This document shows, piece by piece, positions 12,917-64,000 of a stretch of 64,000 nucleotides of DNA. Position 1 is the first letter of the stretch; every line of letters starts with the position of its first letter. Source of the DNA: Prochlorococcus sp. AG-355-P07 (GTDB lineage: Bacteria > Cyanobacteriota > Cyanobacteriia > PCC-6307 > Cyanobiaceae); contig QCEN01000007.1 in NCBI GenBank assembly GCA_003280575.1, forward strand, positions 1 through 64,000. The letters run 5' to 3'. A program made the translations under genes and the position numbers. Under the pieces are notes generated by a model, which was not told the DNA's origin, searched no databases, and saw nothing but the letters and a program-made list of their open reading frames with translations.

Positions 12917-14875
12917 ATGAGTAATTCCTCTATCGAAAAAATAGATAATAAGTATAATTTTAAAATTGAATATAAATTAATTAATAATAAGGAGTTATTA
13001 AAATCAAGATTATCCGAAATTCCGAAGTCATCTGGTTGTTATCTTTTTAAAGATATTGATAGTAACTTACTTTATATCGGTAAATCTAAAAAACTACGTA
13101 GTAGAGTAAGTAGTTATTTCAATAATTATTCAGATTTAACGCCCAGATTAAGTTTGATGGTTCGTCAAATAACTGAAATAGAAATAATAGTCACAGATAG
13201 CGAATATGAAGCATTAAATTTAGAGTCAAATTTAATTAAAACAAACAAACCATACTTTAATATTCTTTTAAAGGATGATAAGAAATATCCATATCTTTGT
13301 ATAACTTGGAGTGAAAAATATCCTCGAATATTTATTACAAGAAGAAGAAGAAATAGAAATAATTTAGATAGATATTATGGGCCTTATGTTGATGTCGGAT
13401 TATTAAGGAGAACATTATTTACGATAAAAAAAATATTTCCACTTAGACAAAGACCAAGGCCAGTCTATAAAGATAGAACTTGTTTGAATTATTCAATAGG
13501 AAGATGTCCAGGTGTTTGCCAAGAAGTTATATCATCTGAAGATTATAAAAAAATAATGAAGCAAGTATCTATGATATTTCAGGGAAGAAATGATGACTTA
13601 GAAATATTTTTACAAAAAAAAATGTTGCAATTTTCAAATGATTTAGATTATGAGAATGCAGCAAAAATAAGAGACCAAATTTCAGGTTTAAAATTATTAA
13701 CTGAATCACAAAAAATATCAATACCAGATTCTTCAATTAATAGAGATATCTTTGGAATAGTTTCTGAAAAAAATGTAGCTAGTATACAAATTTTCCAAAT
13801 GAGATCTGGTAAGCTCATTGGGAGAATTGGCTATAGTCAAAAATTAAATAATGAAGATGAAAATATCATTCTACAAAAGATATTAGAAGAGCATTATATG
13901 AATGTTGAAGCTGTAGAAATACCATCAGAAATTCTTATTCAATATAACCTTCCAAAACAAGCAACCATAGAGGATTGGTTAACGGATCTAAGAAAAAAGA
14001 AAGTAAAAATCTTAATCCCAAAAAGAAATAAAAAACATGAAACTGTAGAAATGGTTTTAAAAAATGCGAAATTGGAATTAGATAGAATAATAAATGGGAT
14101 ACAAGATAATGAATCATCAATTGAGGATCTTGCCCAAATACTTGAATTAAGCGAACAACCTAAAAGAATTGAAGGTTATGATATAAGCCATATTCAAGGT
14201 AGTGACCCTGTAGCATCACAAGTTGTTTTTATTGATGGGATTCCTTCTAAACAGCATTATAGGAAATATAAAATTAAAGATCCAAACGTTGTTTTAGGAC
14301 ATAGTGATGATTTTGCTTCGATATATGAAGTAATACATAGAAGGTTTAAAAAATGGTCAAGATTTAAAGAAAACGGAGGGGATTTTTCAGTATTAAATGA
14401 TAAAACGAATAGTAAATTAGACAATGAACTTCTATCAGATTGGCCTGATTTAATAATGATTGATGGAGGAAAAGGACAGTTAAATGCAGCTATTAAAGCA
14501 TTAAAAGAATTAAATCTTGAGGAAGAAGTAACTATATGTTCATTAGCAAAAAAACATGAAGAAATATTTATTCCAGGATTTACTAAGTCTCTTGATACTG
14601 ACGAAAATCAAAAAGGAATTCTTCTATTAAGAAGGGTAAGAGATGAAGCACATAGATTTGCATTATCTTTTCATAGAGACAAAAGATCTAAGAGAATGAA
14701 TAGATCTCAATTGTCCCAAATCAGTGGATTAGGACCATCAAGAATAAGAGAATTGCTTGAGCATTTTAAATCAATAGACGCGATAAGAATAGCTAGTAAA
14801 GAGGATTTATCAAAAGTTAAAGGACTTGGAAAAAATTCAGTAAATGATATATATGAATATTTTAACGAGTTATAA
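12917..14875 (+). CDS. uvrC: Excinuclease ABC subunit C
   Basis: Makes both incisions in nucleotide excision repair with UvrA and UvrB. In order: the GIY-YIG nuclease (SGCYLFKDIDSNLLYIGKSK), a UVR motif for UvrB contact (LDYENAAKIRDQISG), the RNase H-like endonuclease domain (EGYDISHIQGSDPVASQVVF and DLIMIDGGKGQLNAA) and C-terminal helix-hairpin-helices (ISGLGPSRIRELL, VKGLGKNS). At 652 aa it is full length. The repair-coupling factor gene mfd in this window is truncated, while uvrC is intact. Confidence 0.97.
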   Translation: MSNSSIEKIDNKYNFKIEYKLINNKELLKSRLSEIPKSSGCYLFKDIDSNLLYIGKSKKLRSRVSSYFNNYSDLTPRLSLMVRQITEIEIIVTDSEYEALNLESNLIKTNKPYFNILLKDDKKYPYLCITWSEKYPRIFITRRRRNRNNLDRYYGPYVDVGLLRRTLFTIKKIFPLRQRPRPVYKDRTCLNYSIGRCPGVCQEVISSEDYKKIMKQVSMIFQGRNDDLEIFLQKKMLQFSNDLDYENAAKIRDQISGLKLLTESQKISIPDSSINRDIFGIVSEKNVASIQIFQMRSGKLIGRIGYSQKLNNEDENIILQKILEEHYMNVEAVEIPSEILIQYNLPKQATIEDWLTDLRKKKVKILIPKRNKKHETVEMVLKNAKLELDRIINGIQDNESSIEDLAQILELSEQPKRIEGYDISHIQGSDPVASQVVFIDGIPSKQHYRKYKIKDPNVVLGHSDDFASIYEVIHRRFKKWSRFKENGGDFSVLNDKTNSKLDNELLSDWPDLIMIDGGKGQLNAAIKALKELNLEEEVTICSLAKKHEEIFIPGFTKSLDTDENQKGILLLRRVRDEAHRFALSFHRDKRSKRMNRSQLSQISGLGPSRIRELLEHFKSIDAIRIASKEDLSKVKGLGKNSVNDIYEYFNEL

Positions 14876-47002: not shown

Positions 47003-49225
47003 ATGTTCACATCATCTTCAATAATTGATAATCTTAATCAGTCAGAAGGGTTAGAATATAAAAAATTATGCAGATTGTTAAAAATAACAAAGAAATCTGA
47101 TAGGGATAAATTAGATATTGCTTTAACAGCTCTAGAAAAACTTGAAATAATTAATAAAAATGAAAATGATGAATATACCTGCATAAAAGATAGTGATCAT
47201 CTTGTCGCCAAAATAAGATGTAGTAGCAAAGGCTATTGCTTTGCTGTGAGAGGAAAAGACAAAGAAGATATTTACATTAAAGAAAATCTTCTTAATTATG
47301 CATGGAATGGAGATAAAGTTTTAGTAAGGATAATAAAAGAGGGTTATAGAAGAAGATCTCCTGAGGGAATAGTTGATTGTATTCTTGAAAGATCAAATCA
47401 AATACTTCTTTCTAAGGTTGAAATAATAAATAATGATGTATATGCAATCCCAATTGACGACAGGATACTTTCTAAAATTAAACTTCCAAAAGAGAATAAA
47501 AAATACACTTTCAATCCAGACAATAAGAATATAGTAAAAGTTGAGATTGATAGATTTCCCATAGGTCAAGAAGAGGGACTAGGTCACGTGATCCAAGAAC
47601 TAAAACTAAACAATAATGAGGAATATGATACAGACTTTGTTTTATCTAAAAGCAATATCGCCAAATCATACAATTTAAATCATATTGAATCAAAAAAAAT
47701 AGAAAAAAGGGAGAGGATAGACCTTACAGATAAAAACTCTTATTTATTTAAAAGCTGGAATTCTAATAATTCTCCAATGCTCCCAATGATTCAAATAGAG
47801 AAGGGAAAAAATAAAAGTACTAAATTGTGGATACATACAAATAATCTTGCAGAAAGAGTAGATCTAAATAGTAAAAAATCTCTAGAAATATTATTAAAAA
47901 GTTTTGAATCATTACCCTTATTAAATGATTGGGAAAACTACCTCAGTGAAGCCATAAGAAATGAATCTGAATTTAAATTTCGTGAAAAGAGTGAAGCGAT
48001 AAGCCTTTGTGTACATTTAAATAGTGATAATGAAATAATTGATTGGTCATTTCATCTTACTTTAGTAAAGTGCTCTCTTATTGTTGGAAGTGATCATACT
48101 TACGCGCTTCTATCTAGAAAAAGTAAATCAAGAATAACCTCTCGGGTATTAAAACCCATAAAGGAATATATTGAAGATTTGGATAAAATACTGGAAATTT
48201 CATTTTCATTTAGGCAAAAACATCTTTTGGAGGGTAAGGTTGAAATTCCTGCTCCACTCAACAAAATACAAGTACTAGAAGAATTTTTTGTTCACAATCC
48301 AGCTGAACATTCAAAAGGATATTTTGAATCATTAAACAGAGAAGATTGCCAAACTTTTCTTTCACCAATACTATATGAGGCTAATTTAATATGGTTCAAA
48401 CATTCAAATAAATATGGCTTAAAAAGTGCAGGATACATCTCAAAGGGAATAGATTACGTTAATGCAAATGAAATCATCAAATATTCAGAATTTATTGAAA
48501 ATGATATAGAGCTTAATGAAGATGGCAATTTAACATTTAGTCAAATAATTAAATTATGCGGCGATGATAATAAAAAAAGAATCTTACATAAACTTCTAAT
48601 TAATGAATTTAAGGACAACGAAATAAGGTTGATATCTAAAAATCCTGATAATGATGAATCAGAAAAATTATTTATTTCACCATGGACAATTCCTGGGTTT
48701 GACTTCACTAATCTTATAAACCAGTATTGTATTTTTAATATGATAATAAATGGAAAGAAATCACAGAAAAATAATATTAATACAATCAATATATCGGAAA
48801 GTAAGTCATTAGACTTAGTAACTTGGGATATATTTAATTCATCAATATCAAAGAATCTAGAAACATTATTTAATAAGTTTGTAATAGATAAACATAATGA
48901 ATTCAAGTACAAAGTTAACCAATATAAATCTAATATGATAAGTATAAAAAAAGTTAGAAAAGCAGAAAAGTTACTAGGTAATATTTATAGTGGTTTTATA
49001 TTATCAGTCCAAACATATGGTTTCTTTGTTGAAATATCAGAACTAAATGTAGAGGGTTTAGTACATGTAAGCACTCTTAATAATGATTGGTACGAATATA
49101 GATCAAGGCAAAATCTATTGATTGGAAGAAAATCTAAAAAATCATATAAAGTTGGAGATGCAATAGAAGTTAAAATCATAAAAGTAGATATTCTTAAATA
49201 TCAAATTGATTTAGAGTTAACCTAA
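47003..49225 (+). CDS. RNase R-like protein with a degenerate catalytic centre
   Basis: About 740 aa from ATG at 47003; a GTG at 46964 would add 13 residues. Domain order follows RNase R: a winged-helix start (SEGLEYKKLCRLLKITKKS), a cold-shock-like domain (SKGYCFAVRGKDKEDIYI), the RNB region (from RIDLTDKNSYLF to about residue 560) and a C-terminal S1 domain (GFILSVQTYGFFVEISELNV). The four catalytic aspartates expected just after RIDLTD are absent (that segment reads LFKSWNSNNSPM), and the conserved SP-RRY-D segment is SPILYEANL. It should bind RNA but probably cannot degrade it. Confidence 0.83.
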   Translation: MFTSSSIIDNLNQSEGLEYKKLCRLLKITKKSDRDKLDIALTALEKLEIINKNENDEYTCIKDSDHLVAKIRCSSKGYCFAVRGKDKEDIYIKENLLNYAWNGDKVLVRIIKEGYRRRSPEGIVDCILERSNQILLSKVEIINNDVYAIPIDDRILSKIKLPKENKKYTFNPDNKNIVKVEIDRFPIGQEEGLGHVIQELKLNNNEEYDTDFVLSKSNIAKSYNLNHIESKKIEKRERIDLTDKNSYLFKSWNSNNSPMLPMIQIEKGKNKSTKLWIHTNNLAERVDLNSKKSLEILLKSFESLPLLNDWENYLSEAIRNESEFKFREKSEAISLCVHLNSDNEIIDWSFHLTLVKCSLIVGSDHTYALLSRKSKSRITSRVLKPIKEYIEDLDKILEISFSFRQKHLLEGKVEIPAPLNKIQVLEEFFVHNPAEHSKGYFESLNREDCQTFLSPILYEANLIWFKHSNKYGLKSAGYISKGIDYVNANEIIKYSEFIENDIELNEDGNLTFSQIIKLCGDDNKKRILHKLLINEFKDNEIRLISKNPDNDESEKLFISPWTIPGFDFTNLINQYCIFNMIINGKKSQKNNINTINISESKSLDLVTWDIFNSSISKNLETLFNKFVIDKHNEFKYKVNQYKSNMISIKKVRKAEKLLGNIYSGFILSVQTYGFFVEISELNVEGLVHVSTLNNDWYEYRSRQNLLIGRKSKKSYKVGDAIEVKIIKVDILKYQIDLELT

Positions 49226-56206: not shown

Positions 56207-57880
56207 ATGAGTTTAAATACTTTAATTGATTATATTTCGAACTCACAAATTACTTCTGAATTAATAAAAAGAATTTCAAAAAATAATGAATTAAATATTG
56301 TTGGTTCAAGTAGATATGCAAAATCAATAATCTTAGATAGCATCGCAAAAAAAGAAGAAAAAAATATATTATTAATTTGTCCTAATGTAGAAATTGCCTA
56401 CAAATGGATTGGTTATTTTGAAAGTATAAATGATAAAGAAGTTTTATATTATCCTCCAACAGAACATTTACCATACTCATCAATTAACAAATCAAAAGAG
56501 ATTGAATTTAGTCAGCTTACTGTTTTATCTAAATTAATAAAAAAAGAAAAAAAGGAACTTAATATTGTTATATCAACAGAGAAATCACTGCAACCTCATC
56601 TATTAAGTAAAAACATATTAATTGAAAACAAGTTAGATTTACAAAAAGGGGGGCAATTTGAGATCAAAGAATTAGCAAATAAACTTACTTTGCTAGGTTA
56701 TAAAAAGGAAAATGTAACTACAACAGAGGGATTCTGGAGTAGGAGAGGGGAAATAATAGATATTTATCCTGTCAATAATGAATTTCCTATAAGATTAGAA
56801 TTTTTTGATAATGTAATTGAGAAAATAAGAGAATATGATCCACATACACAAAAAACATTAGAAAATATTAATAATATTGAAATAATACAAGCTGGATTTG
56901 ATTTACTAATAAAAGATAAGCTAAATAATTTATCTAAGAACAGTAATTTTATTTCAGAAGATACAAATAAAAATAATCTTGATCGTTATTTAGGAATAAT
57001 TGAAGAAGAGCCCTCAAATATAATAGATTTTATAAATAAAGAAACAATTCTTGTAATTGATGAATTAGAAGATTGTAAAAAATTTGCGAATAATTGGTAT
57101 CTAGATTCAGAAAGTAATTTTGATAATTGTGCTTATGAATTAAATGAGAATCTAAGAAATAATGATATTAATTTAGAGACCAAACCTAATTTGCATTTAA
57201 AGTTTGACGAAATAATAAATTCACTGGGAAACTTTAATTTAATAAAATTTTATGAATTTGAATCTAAAGTCAATATTGATAATAGGTTTTTATTAAACGA
57301 TCAAAGAATAAATTCATACTCAAAAAATATAGGAAAATTATCTGCAGATATAAATAAAAATATCAAAAATAAAGAAAAAGTATGGATATTATCAGCACAG
57401 CCATTGAGAACAAGGACTTTACTTTTTGAGCACGAATGTAATGCAAACTTCTTAAGCAATCCTAATGATAATGATGAAGCATTTAAGTCAATTAATAATT
57501 CACTACCTTTAATTATAAAAAATAAGAACAATTATGAAATTGAAGGTTTTTTTCTTCCGATATGGAAAGTTGTCCTCATAACTGATAAAGAATTATTTTC
57601 ACAACAATCTCTTTTTAATAATGTTTTCATAAGAAGAAAAAAAAGAAGTGCCAATTCAAATATAAATGTCAATAAGATTAATCCAGGTGATTTTATAGTT
57701 CATAAAAATCATGGAATAGGTAAATTTTTAAAAATAGAAAAAATAAATATAACTGGTGATTCAAGAGATTATTTAGTTATTCAATATCAAGATGGGAAGA
57801 TAAGTGTTGCAGCTGATCAACTTGGAAGTGTTAACAGATATAGATCAAGTGGAAAAATAAAACCGAAAATAAATACTTAA
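56207..57880 (+). pseudogene. mfd: Transcription-repair coupling factor, N-terminal half only
   Basis: 557 aa, against about 1150 for complete Mfd. Present are the UvrB-like domains D1-D2 (IVGSSRYAKSII..., GFWSRRGEIIDIYPVNNEFP), the linker domain and the RNA-polymerase-binding CarD-like domain (residues about 491-549: GDFIVHKNHGIGKFLKIEK, QYQDGKISVAADQLGSVN). The whole translocase motor (helicase motifs) and the D7 domain are missing: the frame stops after RYRSSGKIKPKINT, just where the next domain should begin. It ends inside the convergent, likewise shortened, ubiH. Transcription-coupled repair should be lost unless the join is artefactual. Confidence 0.9.
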
Positions 57881-58832
57881 ATTTAAACAAAATCAAACTC
57901 AATTTAGTAATTGTATTATTTTTATTAAAAAGATTAAAAATTGTATTAACATCTCTCCAACAACTATTTAGACCCTGACCACCAACAGGATGAAATGTAT
58001 GAAAAGCATCACCTACAAAAACAAATTTTTTAAAATTTAAAACTGCTAAATTCAAGGATAATGAAACTGGAAAAATATTCAATTCGCCAATTATTTGATC
58101 TAATTTAAATTCATCAGGCAATATAGTTGATAAATTATCCATCAAGAAATTCTTATCAGAATTCAATCTTTCAATAGACTTAAATGTACTGGAAGTCCAA
58201 ATTACTTGATATAAGTTTTTTTCTAAAGGTAATAATGCAAGTGGGCCTTCTTTTCTAAAAATTTCATAAGCACGCTTTTCAGAATTACCTCTAAGAGAAA
58301 CCTTAAACGTTAAACAAGACTGATTATAAGATTTTTTTATAGCTACAAAATCTAGTAATTTTTTATCAAGAGAGTTTGCTCCACAAGAAAAGAATTCATA
58401 ATCAAATGAAATTTTTTTACCTAACAATTTTTGTGATGTCATGAAAAAAATATTTTCATAATTATTAATCTCTTGAAAAAATATATTCATGAGATCTGAA
58501 TGTTTAACAACCCAGCCAATATTTTTAGCAGAACTTATATCATCATCTAAATCAAAGATTGTTAGCTTAGTAAAAGCCGAAGTTACACTATCTGATATTG
58601 AGAGGGTATCAAAGCCAAATAAATATGGTTCTAATTTATCCCAAAGTCTGAATTTAGATAATATTTTTCTTGTTGAGTGAGTAATTGCATAAGTTTTATC
58701 TTTATCAATTATTCTATTTTTTGACATTAAATCAATTAAAAAAATATTGCAATTAAATTTTGAAAGCGCAATTGAAAGAAGCAGACCAGTTGGTCCGGAG
58801 CCAACAATTTTAAAATTATATGTATTTTTCAT
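57831..58832 (-). pseudogene. ubiH: FAD-dependent UbiH-type monooxygenase, C-terminally truncated
   Basis: 333 aa. The FAD-binding GxGxxG (IVGSGPTGLLLSIAL), the DKTYAITHSTR segment and the GD motif (VFVGDAFHTFHPVGGQGLN) are intact. Family members usually run to about 370-410 aa. Here the protein drifts after KFKYLF into LIYIC, which is read from the mfd gene on the opposite strand, so the true C terminus is missing. In cyanobacteria such enzymes are placed in quinone hydroxylation. It converges with truncated mfd, with a 50 nt overlap of frames. Confidence 0.78.
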
Positions 58833-58847
58833 CAGGTAATATTGATA

Positions 58848-59492
58848 TTATCTATCTAATAAGTATATATAGCAAATTTCCTCAAATGCTGGTCTCAATA
58901 AATAAGGGTACTCACCTACCCACAAATTAATTTCAGGCAACCAAGCATCAGTAAAATAAAAATCTCTGTCAAAATTTCGATTATTAGACGTTAATAAACA
59001 CCTTATATTCGAACCTACTCGAATTTGACTATGCATATTTTCCATAGGGAAACTTAAATTACCTAGATAACCATCTTCATCTTCCATTTCAAGCACTAAC
59101 CAAGTCCTTTTATTTTCGATCAGCTCTAATCGACCTTGCCTATTGGATTGTTCTCTAGAACTCTCAATCTTTTCTGTTTTATAAATATCTGATACGTATC
59201 CATCAAATATAGAAAAAAATTTATATTTTCTAATTTGCAAATTCTTTCTACTTGATTCAAGAATTGGACCCCAAATGATATATAAGAAGAAAGCAACACA
59301 TAGTAATAACCAAAAATTATTTGTTTGATCTCCTGTTGAACTAATAATTAATGTGATAAAACCTCCGATTGAAGAAATTATTACTCTTTGTAGAATTTTT
59401 TTTGGATTACCCAATGCATATTTAAATTGACTTCCTGTACCAACTGCAGGAATAAGTTTTGAAATTTGATTCGATTTAATAGGAATTAGCAT
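58848..59492 (-). CDS. Cyanobacterial two-helix membrane protein (unknown)
   Basis: 214 aa. It begins LIPIKSNQISKLIPAVGTGS, then has two hydrophobic segments (about residues 36-52 and 58-75), followed by a soluble beta-rich domain (WLVLEMEDEDGYLGNLSF, SNIRCLLTSNNRNF, TDAWLPEINLWVGEYPYLLR). It is conserved in cyanobacteria as far as I recall, sometimes mislabelled as a phosphate permease. Function is unknown. It is 1 nt from dapB and 15 nt from ubiH on the same strand, so probably co-transcribed. Confidence 0.72.
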   Translation of the reverse strand: MLIPIKSNQISKLIPAVGTGSQFKYALGNPKKILQRVIISSIGGFITLIISSTGDQTNNFWLLLCVAFFLYIIWGPILESSRKNLQIRKYKFFSIFDGYVSDIYKTEKIESSREQSNRQGRLELIENKRTWLVLEMEDEDGYLGNLSFPMENMHSQIRVGSNIRCLLTSNNRNFDRDFYFTDAWLPEINLWVGEYPYLLRPAFEEICYIYLLDR

Positions 59493-59493
59493 T

Positions 59494-60342
59494 TTAAAAA
59501 ATCAATTTTTCAAGTCCATAAACTAAAAATTCATAATTACCTATTTTTTTAATAGCCTGCAAAACACCTGGCATATATGCCTTTCTATCAATAGTGTCAT
59601 GCTTAATTGTATAAGTTTCACCAGGTGATCCCATAATTACTAACTGATGGGCTAATAATCCTGGCAATCTTACTGAATGAATATTTATTCCTGAATCTCT
59701 TACTCCGCCGCGGACACCCTTCAACGATTCAAACTCTTTTACCAAATTTGGATTGAATTTCTTTAAACTTTCTTCAATCATTTCAGCGGTTTTTATACAA
59801 GTTCCACTAGGTGAATCTGCTTTTTGGTTGTGATGCATTTCAATTAATTCAATATTGTCATAGAATCTTGCAGCCACAGATGCTGCCTGCTGAAGAAGAA
59901 CCATGCCAACTGAAAAATTAGGTATTATTGCGCAACCGGTAGATGCTTTCTGAGCAAAAACTGATAAATCTTTTATTTGTGAGGGAGTAAGACCTGTGGT
60001 CCCAACGACTGGTGAAATACCATAAGCGATAGATGCTCTAGTATTTTCATATACAGAATCAGGATGAGTAAAATCAACGAGGACAGGTTTGATATTTTCA
60101 TTTCTGTAATTTTGACTAACAGAACATAAAGTTCCTTCAAAATCATTTGAAACAAGAACATCACAATATTTTACCTTCAATAATTCAGAAATATTTGAGC
60201 CATTGTTCTTTTCGTTTATGTCAATTGCCGCCACAAGTTCACAATCTGCAGAATTTAATACAGTATTCACAACTTCGCTTCCCATTCTGCCTAAAGCTCC
60301 GGATACAAGTACTGGTATAGGTTTTTTAGAATTTTCAATCAT
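59494..60342 (-). CDS. dapB: 4-hydroxy-tetrahydrodipicolinate reductase
   Basis: NAD(P)H reduction step of the diaminopimelate/lysine pathway, upstream of dapF (also in this window). The 282 aa protein shows the Rossmann [25 protein letters not shown] and the catalytic histidine region [14 protein letters not shown]. It starts at ATG and is divergent from chlH across 102 nt. Confidence 0.96.
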
Positions 60343-60444
60343 TTTTGTAAAAAATTTTTTTTTAAATGATGTTACACGCTATTTATATTGCACACAATAA
60401 CGTCTTTTCATTCGTAGGCTGGTAAAAATACTTAAATAAAATCA

Positions 60445-63400
60445 ATGTTTACGCAGGTCCGCTCAGCAAACCGCAGAGTATCTCCTGTTGAGGATAACAA
60501 ACACAAAGTTGTAATAAAAGCAGTTTATGTTGTCCTTGAGCCACAATACCAAAATTCCTTAACGGAAGCAGCAAAGTCAATAAACGAGATGAATGGATCA
60601 ATAGGTATAGACCTCAGCGGCTATCTTATTGAAGAACTTAGAAATGAAAGTAATTTTGAGGATTTTAAAGAAGATATAGCTAATGCAGATATATTTGTTG
60701 CTTCCCTCATTTTCATAGAAGATCTTGCTCAAAAGGTTGTTGATGCTGTTTCTCCGTACAAAGATAATCTCAAAGCTTCAATAATCTTCCCCTCGATGCC
60801 AGAGGTAATGAGATTAAATAAATTAGGTTCATTTAGTATGGCCCAACTTGGTCAATCTAAAAGTATTATTGGAGATTTAATAAAAAAGAAAAAGGAATCT
60901 GATGGTGCAAGCTTCCAAGATTCAATGTTGAAATTATTAAATACACTACCTTCAATACTTAAATATCTACCAGTAGAAAAAGCTCAAGATGCTAGAACAT
61001 TCATTCTGAGTTTTCAGTATTGGCTAGGTGGTACGACTGAGAACCTAAAAAATTTCTTGTTAATGATTTCTGAAAAGTACGCTGTTTCAGAGAATATAAA
61101 AGATCAAATAGAAGAATTTAAAATACAAGACCCTGAGACTTTCCCAGATCTAGGAATTTGGCATCCTTTAGCTCCTTGTATGTTTGAAAGTCTGAAAGAA
61201 TATCAAAATTGGGAAAATAACAGGACTGATATAAATCCAAAGGGTGACAAAACACCCACAATTGGATTAGTACTTCAAAGAAGTCATATAGTTACTGGAG
61301 ATGATGCTCATTATGTTGCTGTTATTCAAGAATTGGAATATAGAGGAGCAAGAGTTCTTCCTATTTTCTGTGGTGGTCTAGATTTTTCTAAACCAGTTAA
61401 CGAATTCTATTATGATTCAATCAATAAAGATCTCCCTATAGTAGATGGAGTTGTATCTTTAACAGGATTTGCACTTGTTGGTGGCCCAGCGAGACAAGAC
61501 CATCCCAAAGCTGTGGAGGCCCTTAAAAAACTAAATAGACCTTATATGGTTGCCCTTCCTTTAGTTTTTCAAACCACTCAAGAATGGGAAGATAGTGATC
61601 TGGGATTACACCCTGTTCAGGTTGCACTTCAAATAGCGATTCCTGAACTAGATGGAGCAATTGAACCTATTATTCTCTCAGGTCGGGATGATGCTACAGG
61701 TAAGGCGCATACACTTCAAGATCGAGTCGATGTAATAGCTGATAGAGCAATTAAATGGTCAACTTTAAGAGTAAAGCAAAGAAAAGATAAAAAATTAGCT
61801 ATTACAGTATTTAGCTTTCCTCCTGACAAAGGCAATGTCGGAACAGCTGCATATCTTAACGTTTTCGGTTCAATTTACAGAGTACTTCTTGAAATGAAAT
61901 CGAAGGGATATCAAATTGATGAACTTCCAAATAATTCAAAAGAATTAATGGAAAAAGTAATTAACAATCCTGAAGCACTGGATGGTTCTCCGGAATTAAA
62001 TATTGCACATAAGATGTCGGTAAAAGAATACGAAGAATTCACACCCTATTCACAAAGACTTGAAGAGAATTGGGGCAAACCACCTGGAAACTTAAATAGT
62101 GATGGACAGAATCTTCTTATCTATGGAAAACATTTTGGAAATGTTTTTATAGGTGTTCAACCAACCTTCGGTTATGAAGGTGATCCAATGAGATTACTTT
62201 ATTCCAGAAGTGCTAGTCCTCATCACGGTTTTGCCGCTTACTATACTTATGTAGAAAAAATCTGGGGTGCTGATGCTGTTCTTCATTTTGGAACTCATGG
62301 TTCACTTGAATTTATGCCTGGTAAACAGATGGGTATGAGTGATACATGCTATCCAGATTCTCTCATTGGATCATTGCCTAATTTGTATTATTATGCAGCG
62401 AACAACCCTTCTGAAGCAACAATTGCAAAGAGAAGAGGATACGCATCCACTATTAGCTATTTGACTCCTCCAGCAGAAAATGCAGGGCTTTACAAAGGAC
62501 TTAAAGAACTAAGTGAGCTTGTTGGTTCTTATCAACAATTAAGAGAAAATAGCAGGGGAATTCAAATAGTTAATGCAATAGTCGAGACTTCTAAGCAATG
62601 TAATCTTGATAAAGATGTTGAGCTCCCATCAAAAAACGTAGAAGAACTTTCTCTAGAAGAAAGAGATCTATTTGTCGGTAATATCTACAAACAGTTGATG
62701 GAAATAGAAAGTAGATTACTTCCATGTGGCCTTCATACCATTGGAGAAGCTCCAACTGCTGAAGAAGCTGTAGCAACACTTGTAAACATTGCATCGTTGG
62801 AAAGGGAACAAGAGGAATTAAGATCTCTACCTGGATTACTGGCGGAATCAATTGATCTGACTATTGACCAAATTTATGATGGAAATAATAAAGGTGAACT
62901 TAAATTTGTAGAGTTAAATGAAAAAATCATAAAGACATCAAGAGAAGCAATTTTTGCTATGGTTAATTCCTTAAAAATTGTTGATGGTAGAGTTTATTTA
63001 GAAAAATCACTTCTGTCTAAACTATTTGACTTTCTTAAACTATTTGGTCTGAATCTTCCTACTCCCTGGCTTAGAGTTTGTAGAATAAACGGTTTTAACG
63101 AAATTAATCAGAAAGAATTAAATAAATTATTTGATTATTTACTTTTCTGTTTGGAACAGGTTTGTGCAGACAAAGAAATGGATAGCCTCATCAAGGCATT
63201 AGATGGTAATTATGTTTTACCAGGACCAGGAGGAGATCCAATAAGAAACCCAGGTGTTTTACCCAGCGGTAAAAATATACATGCACTTGATCCTCAATCA
63301 ATTCCAACTACAGCAGCAGTCGCTGCTGCAAAATCAGTTGTCGACAAACTAATTGCGAGACAAAAGGAAGAACAAGGTACTTGGCCTGAAACAATTGCTT

Positions 63401-64000
63401 GCGTATTATGGGGTACGGACAACATCAAGACCTACGGAGAATCACTTGCACAAATCTTATGGTTTGTAGGAGTAAAACCAAAACCAGACTCTGTAGGAAG
63501 AATCAACAAATTAGAATTAATCCCATTAGAAGAATTAGGCAGACCAAGAATAGATGTAGTAGTAAACTGTTCTGGGGTTTTTAGGGATCTGTTTATCAAT
63601 CAAATGGCATTAATAGATCAAGCAGTCAAACTAGCCGCAGAGGCTAATGAGCCTTTGGAGTCAAATTTTGTAAGAAAACATTCACTAGAACAAGCAGAAA
63701 AAGAAGGTACTTCAATCCGAGAAGCTTCTGCGAGGGTATTCTCTAATGCTAGTGGTAGCTATAGTTCGAATGTTAATTTAGCTGTAGAAAATTCTACTTG
63801 GGAGGAAGAAAATGAATTACAAGAAATGTATTTATCTCGCAAGACATATGCTTTCAATGCTGATAATCCAGGTGAAATGAATCAAAAAAGAGATGTATTT
63901 GAATCTGTCATGAAAACAGCAGATGTTACATTTCAGAATCTTGATTCATCTGAAATTTCTCTAACAGATGTTAGTCACTATTTTGATTCAGATCCAACAA
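60445..64000 (+). CDS. chlH: Magnesium chelatase subunit H (partial)
   Basis: Porphyrin-binding subunit that inserts Mg2+ into protoporphyrin IX with ChlI and ChlD: the first committed step of chlorophyll synthesis. From ATG at 60445 the frame stays open to the window end (1185 codons; complete proteins are about 1330 aa). Recognisable parts are the start [20 protein letters not shown], the [20 protein letters not shown] motif, the [20 protein letters not shown] segment and [17 protein letters not shown]. It is the paralogue of cobN at 16171. Divergent from dapB. Confidence 0.96.

Follow-up and report, generated by a model that had tools for sequence, protein, structure and literature searches.

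A join that truncates mfd and a UbiH-like gene in Prochlorococcus: a probable error of amplification or assembly rather than the loss of a DNA-repair gene

In a Prochlorococcus genome, mfd and a facing gene of the UbiH type are both cut off at the point where they converge. The locus raises the question of whether a cell has lost transcription-coupled repair, or whether the two genes have been brought together by an assembly or chimera error. The original prediction named both alternatives; the balance of the evidence leans to error, and the data presented here do not decide outright. The window is the whole stretch of 64,000 nucleotides that was analysed (bases 1 to 64,000 of contig C7, 77,411 bp), from a genome of 1,524,965 bp in 30 contigs that is rated 96.87% complete. 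If the truncations are real, a cyanobacterium of the sunlit ocean would manage with neither transcription-coupled repair nor several genes that its relatives keep. More probably, one false assembly join makes six genes seem cut or lost, a caution for a genus in which many of the genomes that represent species seem to be assembled from single cells. We read the join as a probable error of amplification or assembly; a living cell that has lost a DNA-repair gene is the less likely reading.

Two truncated genes and the join between them

The locus comprises the following features:

56,207 to 57,880, plus strand: mfd stub of 557 aa, in which codons 1-556 agree with those of intact Mfd and are followed by a single novel residue and the stop codon.
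57,831 to 58,832, minus strand: UbiH-like stub of 333 aa, with residues 1-320 as in an intact 384-aa relative, then 13 residues antisense to mfd.
57,871 to 57,875, no strand: the join, a 5-bp microhomology (AAATA) common to both breakpoints, with approximately 4.09 kb of the relatives' DNA missing.

The mfd stub ends directly behind the RNA-polymerase-interacting domain. Profile searches identified UvrB_inter (PF17757, 78 bits, cut-off 22.9) and CarD_TRCF_RID (PF02559, 58.8 bits, cut-off 23) in its 557 residues and no match to DEAD, Helicase_C or TRCF; a TRCF domain was found nowhere in the genome. The intact Mfd of a relative (locus L082) has 1,169 aa and contains UvrB_inter, CarD_TRCF_RID, DEAD, Helicase_C and TRCF. 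Codons 557-1169 are therefore missing, in agreement with the predicted stop after the polymerase-binding domain and loss of the motor and D7. The gene uvrC, said to be kept, is indeed full length at 12,917-14,875.

The UvrB-like domain of Mfd is the contact for UvrA, and a polymerase-binding domain without the motor is unable to move a stalled polymerase. If the truncation is real, the predicted stub keeps the UvrA-contact and polymerase-binding domains; on this background a stalled polymerase would not be moved, and transcription-coupled repair would therefore be lost while uvrC remains. It is doubtful that a single step stripped a living Prochlorococcus cell, or a young lineage, of the Mfd motor, of four small genes that relatives retain and of the C-terminal part of the UbiH-like protein, and left it with such a polymerase-binding, non-moving stub.

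The UbiH-like stub agrees with its relative through residue 320 (...LILFKFKY) and lacks the relative's last 64 codons. The final 13 of its 333 residues are read from antisense mfd codons, as had been proposed, and the two open reading frames overlap by 50 bp. Both truncations follow from a single join of the deletion type, located at a microhomology where the two genes converge, as had been suggested. Alignment with the relative loci places an exact microhomology, AAATA, at 57,871-57,875, which bears out a microhomology event and replaces the GAAAATAAATA originally put forward. Among random pairs of breakpoints drawn from the region, 1.2% have at least 5 bases in common. If approximately 4.09 kb had truly been deleted at this microhomology, very recently and in the cell or in a young sublineage, the event would have removed the Mfd motor (and hence transcription-coupled repair) along with the four small genes and the C-terminal part of the UbiH-like protein; we consider such a deletion possible and on the whole unlikely.

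The missing interval and its presence in relatives

Both flanks are present in 78 of the 88 loci inspected, and the other 10 stop before the second flank. Three pairs of loci come from the same genome, so that the 78 loci represent 75 distinct genomes. The missing interval measures 4,082-4,105 bp in all 78, about twice the 2 kb first suggested for what is nevertheless a single deletion-type join. In L082 (6003-10088) it contains mfd codons 557-1169, a 122-aa ORF with no Pfam match, DUF4335, DUF3038, DUF2949 and the 64 codons at the 3' end of the UbiH-like gene. The two truncated genes were taken for direct neighbours; in relatives the four small genes lie between them, and these too are lost here. 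The join thus affects six genes at once, all of them intact in relatives.

Full-length matches in the 88 loci number 83 for mfd, 83 for the 122-aa ORF, 84 for DUF4335, 79 for DUF3038, 78 for DUF2949 and 78 for the UbiH-like gene. The missing matches come from loci that end early, from two frameshifted mfd genes (one also in an early-ending locus) and from two slightly short alignments in L122. DUF3038 gave no match in L125 and L168 at the 60% identity filter. Across the class, DUF3038 is present in 107 of 117 genomes, and the studied genome is among the ten without it. Both this and the retention of the interval in every locus with both flanks argue against a real deletion.

Intact copies elsewhere in the genome had been named as grounds for abandoning the original prediction, and none was found when mfd and the missing DNA were searched for across the assembly. 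Relocation of the missing DNA was likewise rejected, the best match being 71% identical over 111 bases on contig C2, in what we take for a related helicase gene.

A 601-bp probe spanning the join has some match in 226 of the 266 genus genomes searched. Among the matches listed, where a spanning match would rank first, the full-length match is in its own genome alone, and the other high-scoring matches cover approximately positions 1-276 or 272-601. A real deletion has to contend with this lack of a second genome with the join. The named loci that carry a match to the mfd stub (the best 80 of 182) are nearly all Prochlorococcus, including four MIT isolates; two are labelled uncultured Synechococcaceae. 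Most of these 80 relatives bear what we take to be plate-style single-cell names, in part recognisable from PMC6122165.

Apparent loss of mfd was also considered in three genomes that are at least 90% complete (G149, G177 and G284) and seem to have no more than a weak match to the mfd stub. These were taken as assembly gaps: in G149 and G284 the contig ends no further than approximately 1 kb from pmbA, the neighbour of mfd, in the direction of mfd, and in G177 the pmbA match breaks off at residue 432 of 450.

At mfd codons ~820-823 the usual GGGGAGGT is replaced by a pure G run in four loci. The run has nine G in L101 (G276, AG-920-M14) and L103 (G179, AG-347-I19) and ten in L259 (G258), all with a shifted frame, and eight in L084 (G183), in frame. 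The shifted open frames have 833 aa in G276 and G179 and 839 aa in G258. Either a slippery tract that switches a repair gene on and off or an amplification or sequencing error at a homopolymer could explain the run. If the frameshifts are real, the loss of mfd would be tolerated, which speaks for a real deletion at the locus under study. A literature search returned nothing useful on Prochlorococcus mfd, on slr1300 with plastoquinone or on DUF3038, DUF4335 and DUF2949, and a term search found no mention of mfd in PMC9659335 and PMC5464585.

Constraint on the stubs and ancestry of the flanks

Neither stub is clearly decayed. The dN/dS of the mfd stub is 0.152 (panel mean 0.148, sd 0.017; equalled or exceeded by 30 of 72) and that of the UbiH-like stub is 0.175 (panel 0.147, sd 0.019; 4 of 72). 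The relaxed constraint of an old pseudogene pair is not seen, the mfd stub being ordinary and the ubiH stub slightly raised at most. This small rise favours a real deletion, and the otherwise normal constraint counts against it. Involvement of ubiH in plastoquinone biosynthesis has been described in marine Synechococcus (PMC7393227), so its loss may harm the cell, a further point against a real deletion.

Apart from the join, collinearity with two relatives, G078 and G068, extends over the whole contig of 77 kb, which speaks for a real deletion. Identity to both is approximately 93.5% left of the join and 88.4% right of it, and is back at approximately 94% by the contig end. The stretch of ~88% identity covers 57,876-64,000 and continues to ~74,400 of the contig, some 17 kb in which G078 and G068 are 90-97% identical to each other.

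The fall in identity suggested that the join might have two sources, either a diverged right segment imported by recombination that was homologous at one end and illegitimate at the other, or a mixture of two cells. One-sided illegitimate recombination has been described in naturally competent bacteria (PMC3240628). This explanation was rejected as very improbable because divergence does not jump at the join itself and because identity falls likewise in relatives that are intact. The synonymous difference to the panel near the join is 0.25 on the left (panel 0.12) and 0.34 on the right (panel 0.19), about twice the panel's on both sides, and the intact relatives G075, L138 and L158 fall similarly without any deletion. 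On these sequence comparisons both flanks look like one lineage. Since they do, and since neither stub is clearly decayed, either the loss took place very recently or it is not real.

In two other loci, L125 and L168, the ubiH-side allele is strongly diverged (74-76% identity to the window) whereas mfd is 92-93% identical. The contrast suggests a recombination boundary within the interval in these loci.

Origin of the join and comparison with known systems

Approximately 300 kb of the assembly was compared with G078 (77.4 kb of C7, 99.2 kb of C3, 84.9 kb of C2 and 38.9 kb of C1). No inverted join and no further gene-cutting join was found in it. Left out of the count were 7.3 kb at the start of the C1 sample, which lie outside the reference stretch, and the C1 sample beyond 150,251, where the only matches are scattered ones at 65-73% identity, in part on the opposite strand. 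A difference on C3 is a gene-content swap, and the edges of a 15.1-kb insertion on C2 and of two differing stretches on C1 cut no ORF relative to G078. A 1,031-bp difference on C2 corresponds to pstS, which the studied genome has on C1 at 47,190-48,170. In G078 and G068 pstS adjoins pstC; it is missing there in the studied genome (C2 near 72,186; L215 near 12,186). The absence of inverted joins is a weak test because an assembler may drop inverted joins more readily than direct ones.

In our judgement an artefact is the probable explanation, and the join is most likely not part of the cell's chromosome. During whole-genome amplification or assembly, the copied strand or the assembly path would have hopped between two AAATA sites approximately 4.09 kb apart in the same orientation. 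The DNA between the sites would have been skipped, and would then have been too poorly covered to appear elsewhere. We infer that the assembly derives from a single cell and that the hop took place in vitro. Support for an artefact comes from the restriction of the join to this genome among the matches listed, the constant spacing of the flanks in relatives, the number of genes affected at once, the lack of clear decay in the stubs, the microhomology at the join, the misassembly rate published for single-cell pipelines and the single-cell names of most relatives.

Published benchmarks bear on both sides. A pipeline that has been applied to many single cells of Prochlorococcus keeps contigs >2,000 bp and gave a mean of 1.5 misassemblies per 100 kb in benchmark cultures, according to excerpts of PMC6122165; the last-numbered contig of the studied genome is 2,565 bp. 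Excerpts of PMC5519541 give single-cell assemblies of P. marinus the fewest misassemblies among the benchmark strains, which counts against an artefact. In an excerpt on 475 amplification chimeras, direct joins across <10 kb number 11 and inverted joins across <10 kb number 337, and 90.9% of direct chimeras <10 kb have complementary bases at the junction (PMC1855051). The rarity of the direct class and the lack of a second suspicious join in the ~300 kb compared are points against an artefact and for a real deletion.

The mfd product resembles Mfd (TIGR00580) in its UvrB-like and RNA-polymerase-interacting domains, and residues 1-556 are 93% identical to the best intact relative. It differs in lacking the helicase motor (DEAD/Helicase_C) and the TRCF domain, and scores 174.8 bits against a cut-off of 800. 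The UbiH-like stub resembles the UbiH/UbiF/VisC/COQ6 family hydroxylases (TIGR01988) in its conserved FAD-binding part and differs in lacking the last 64 residues. It scores 151.6 bits against 175.8 in the intact relative, both below the cut-off of 224.65. The join itself differs from the direct-orientation chimeras of multiple displacement amplification (MDA; Lasken and Stockwell 2007, PMC1855051) in that this class is rare in the part of that work cited above and the more numerous inverted joins are not seen in ~300 kb here. It resembles them in that the linked segments lie <10 kb from each other, keep their orientation and order, and have a short sequence in common at the join.
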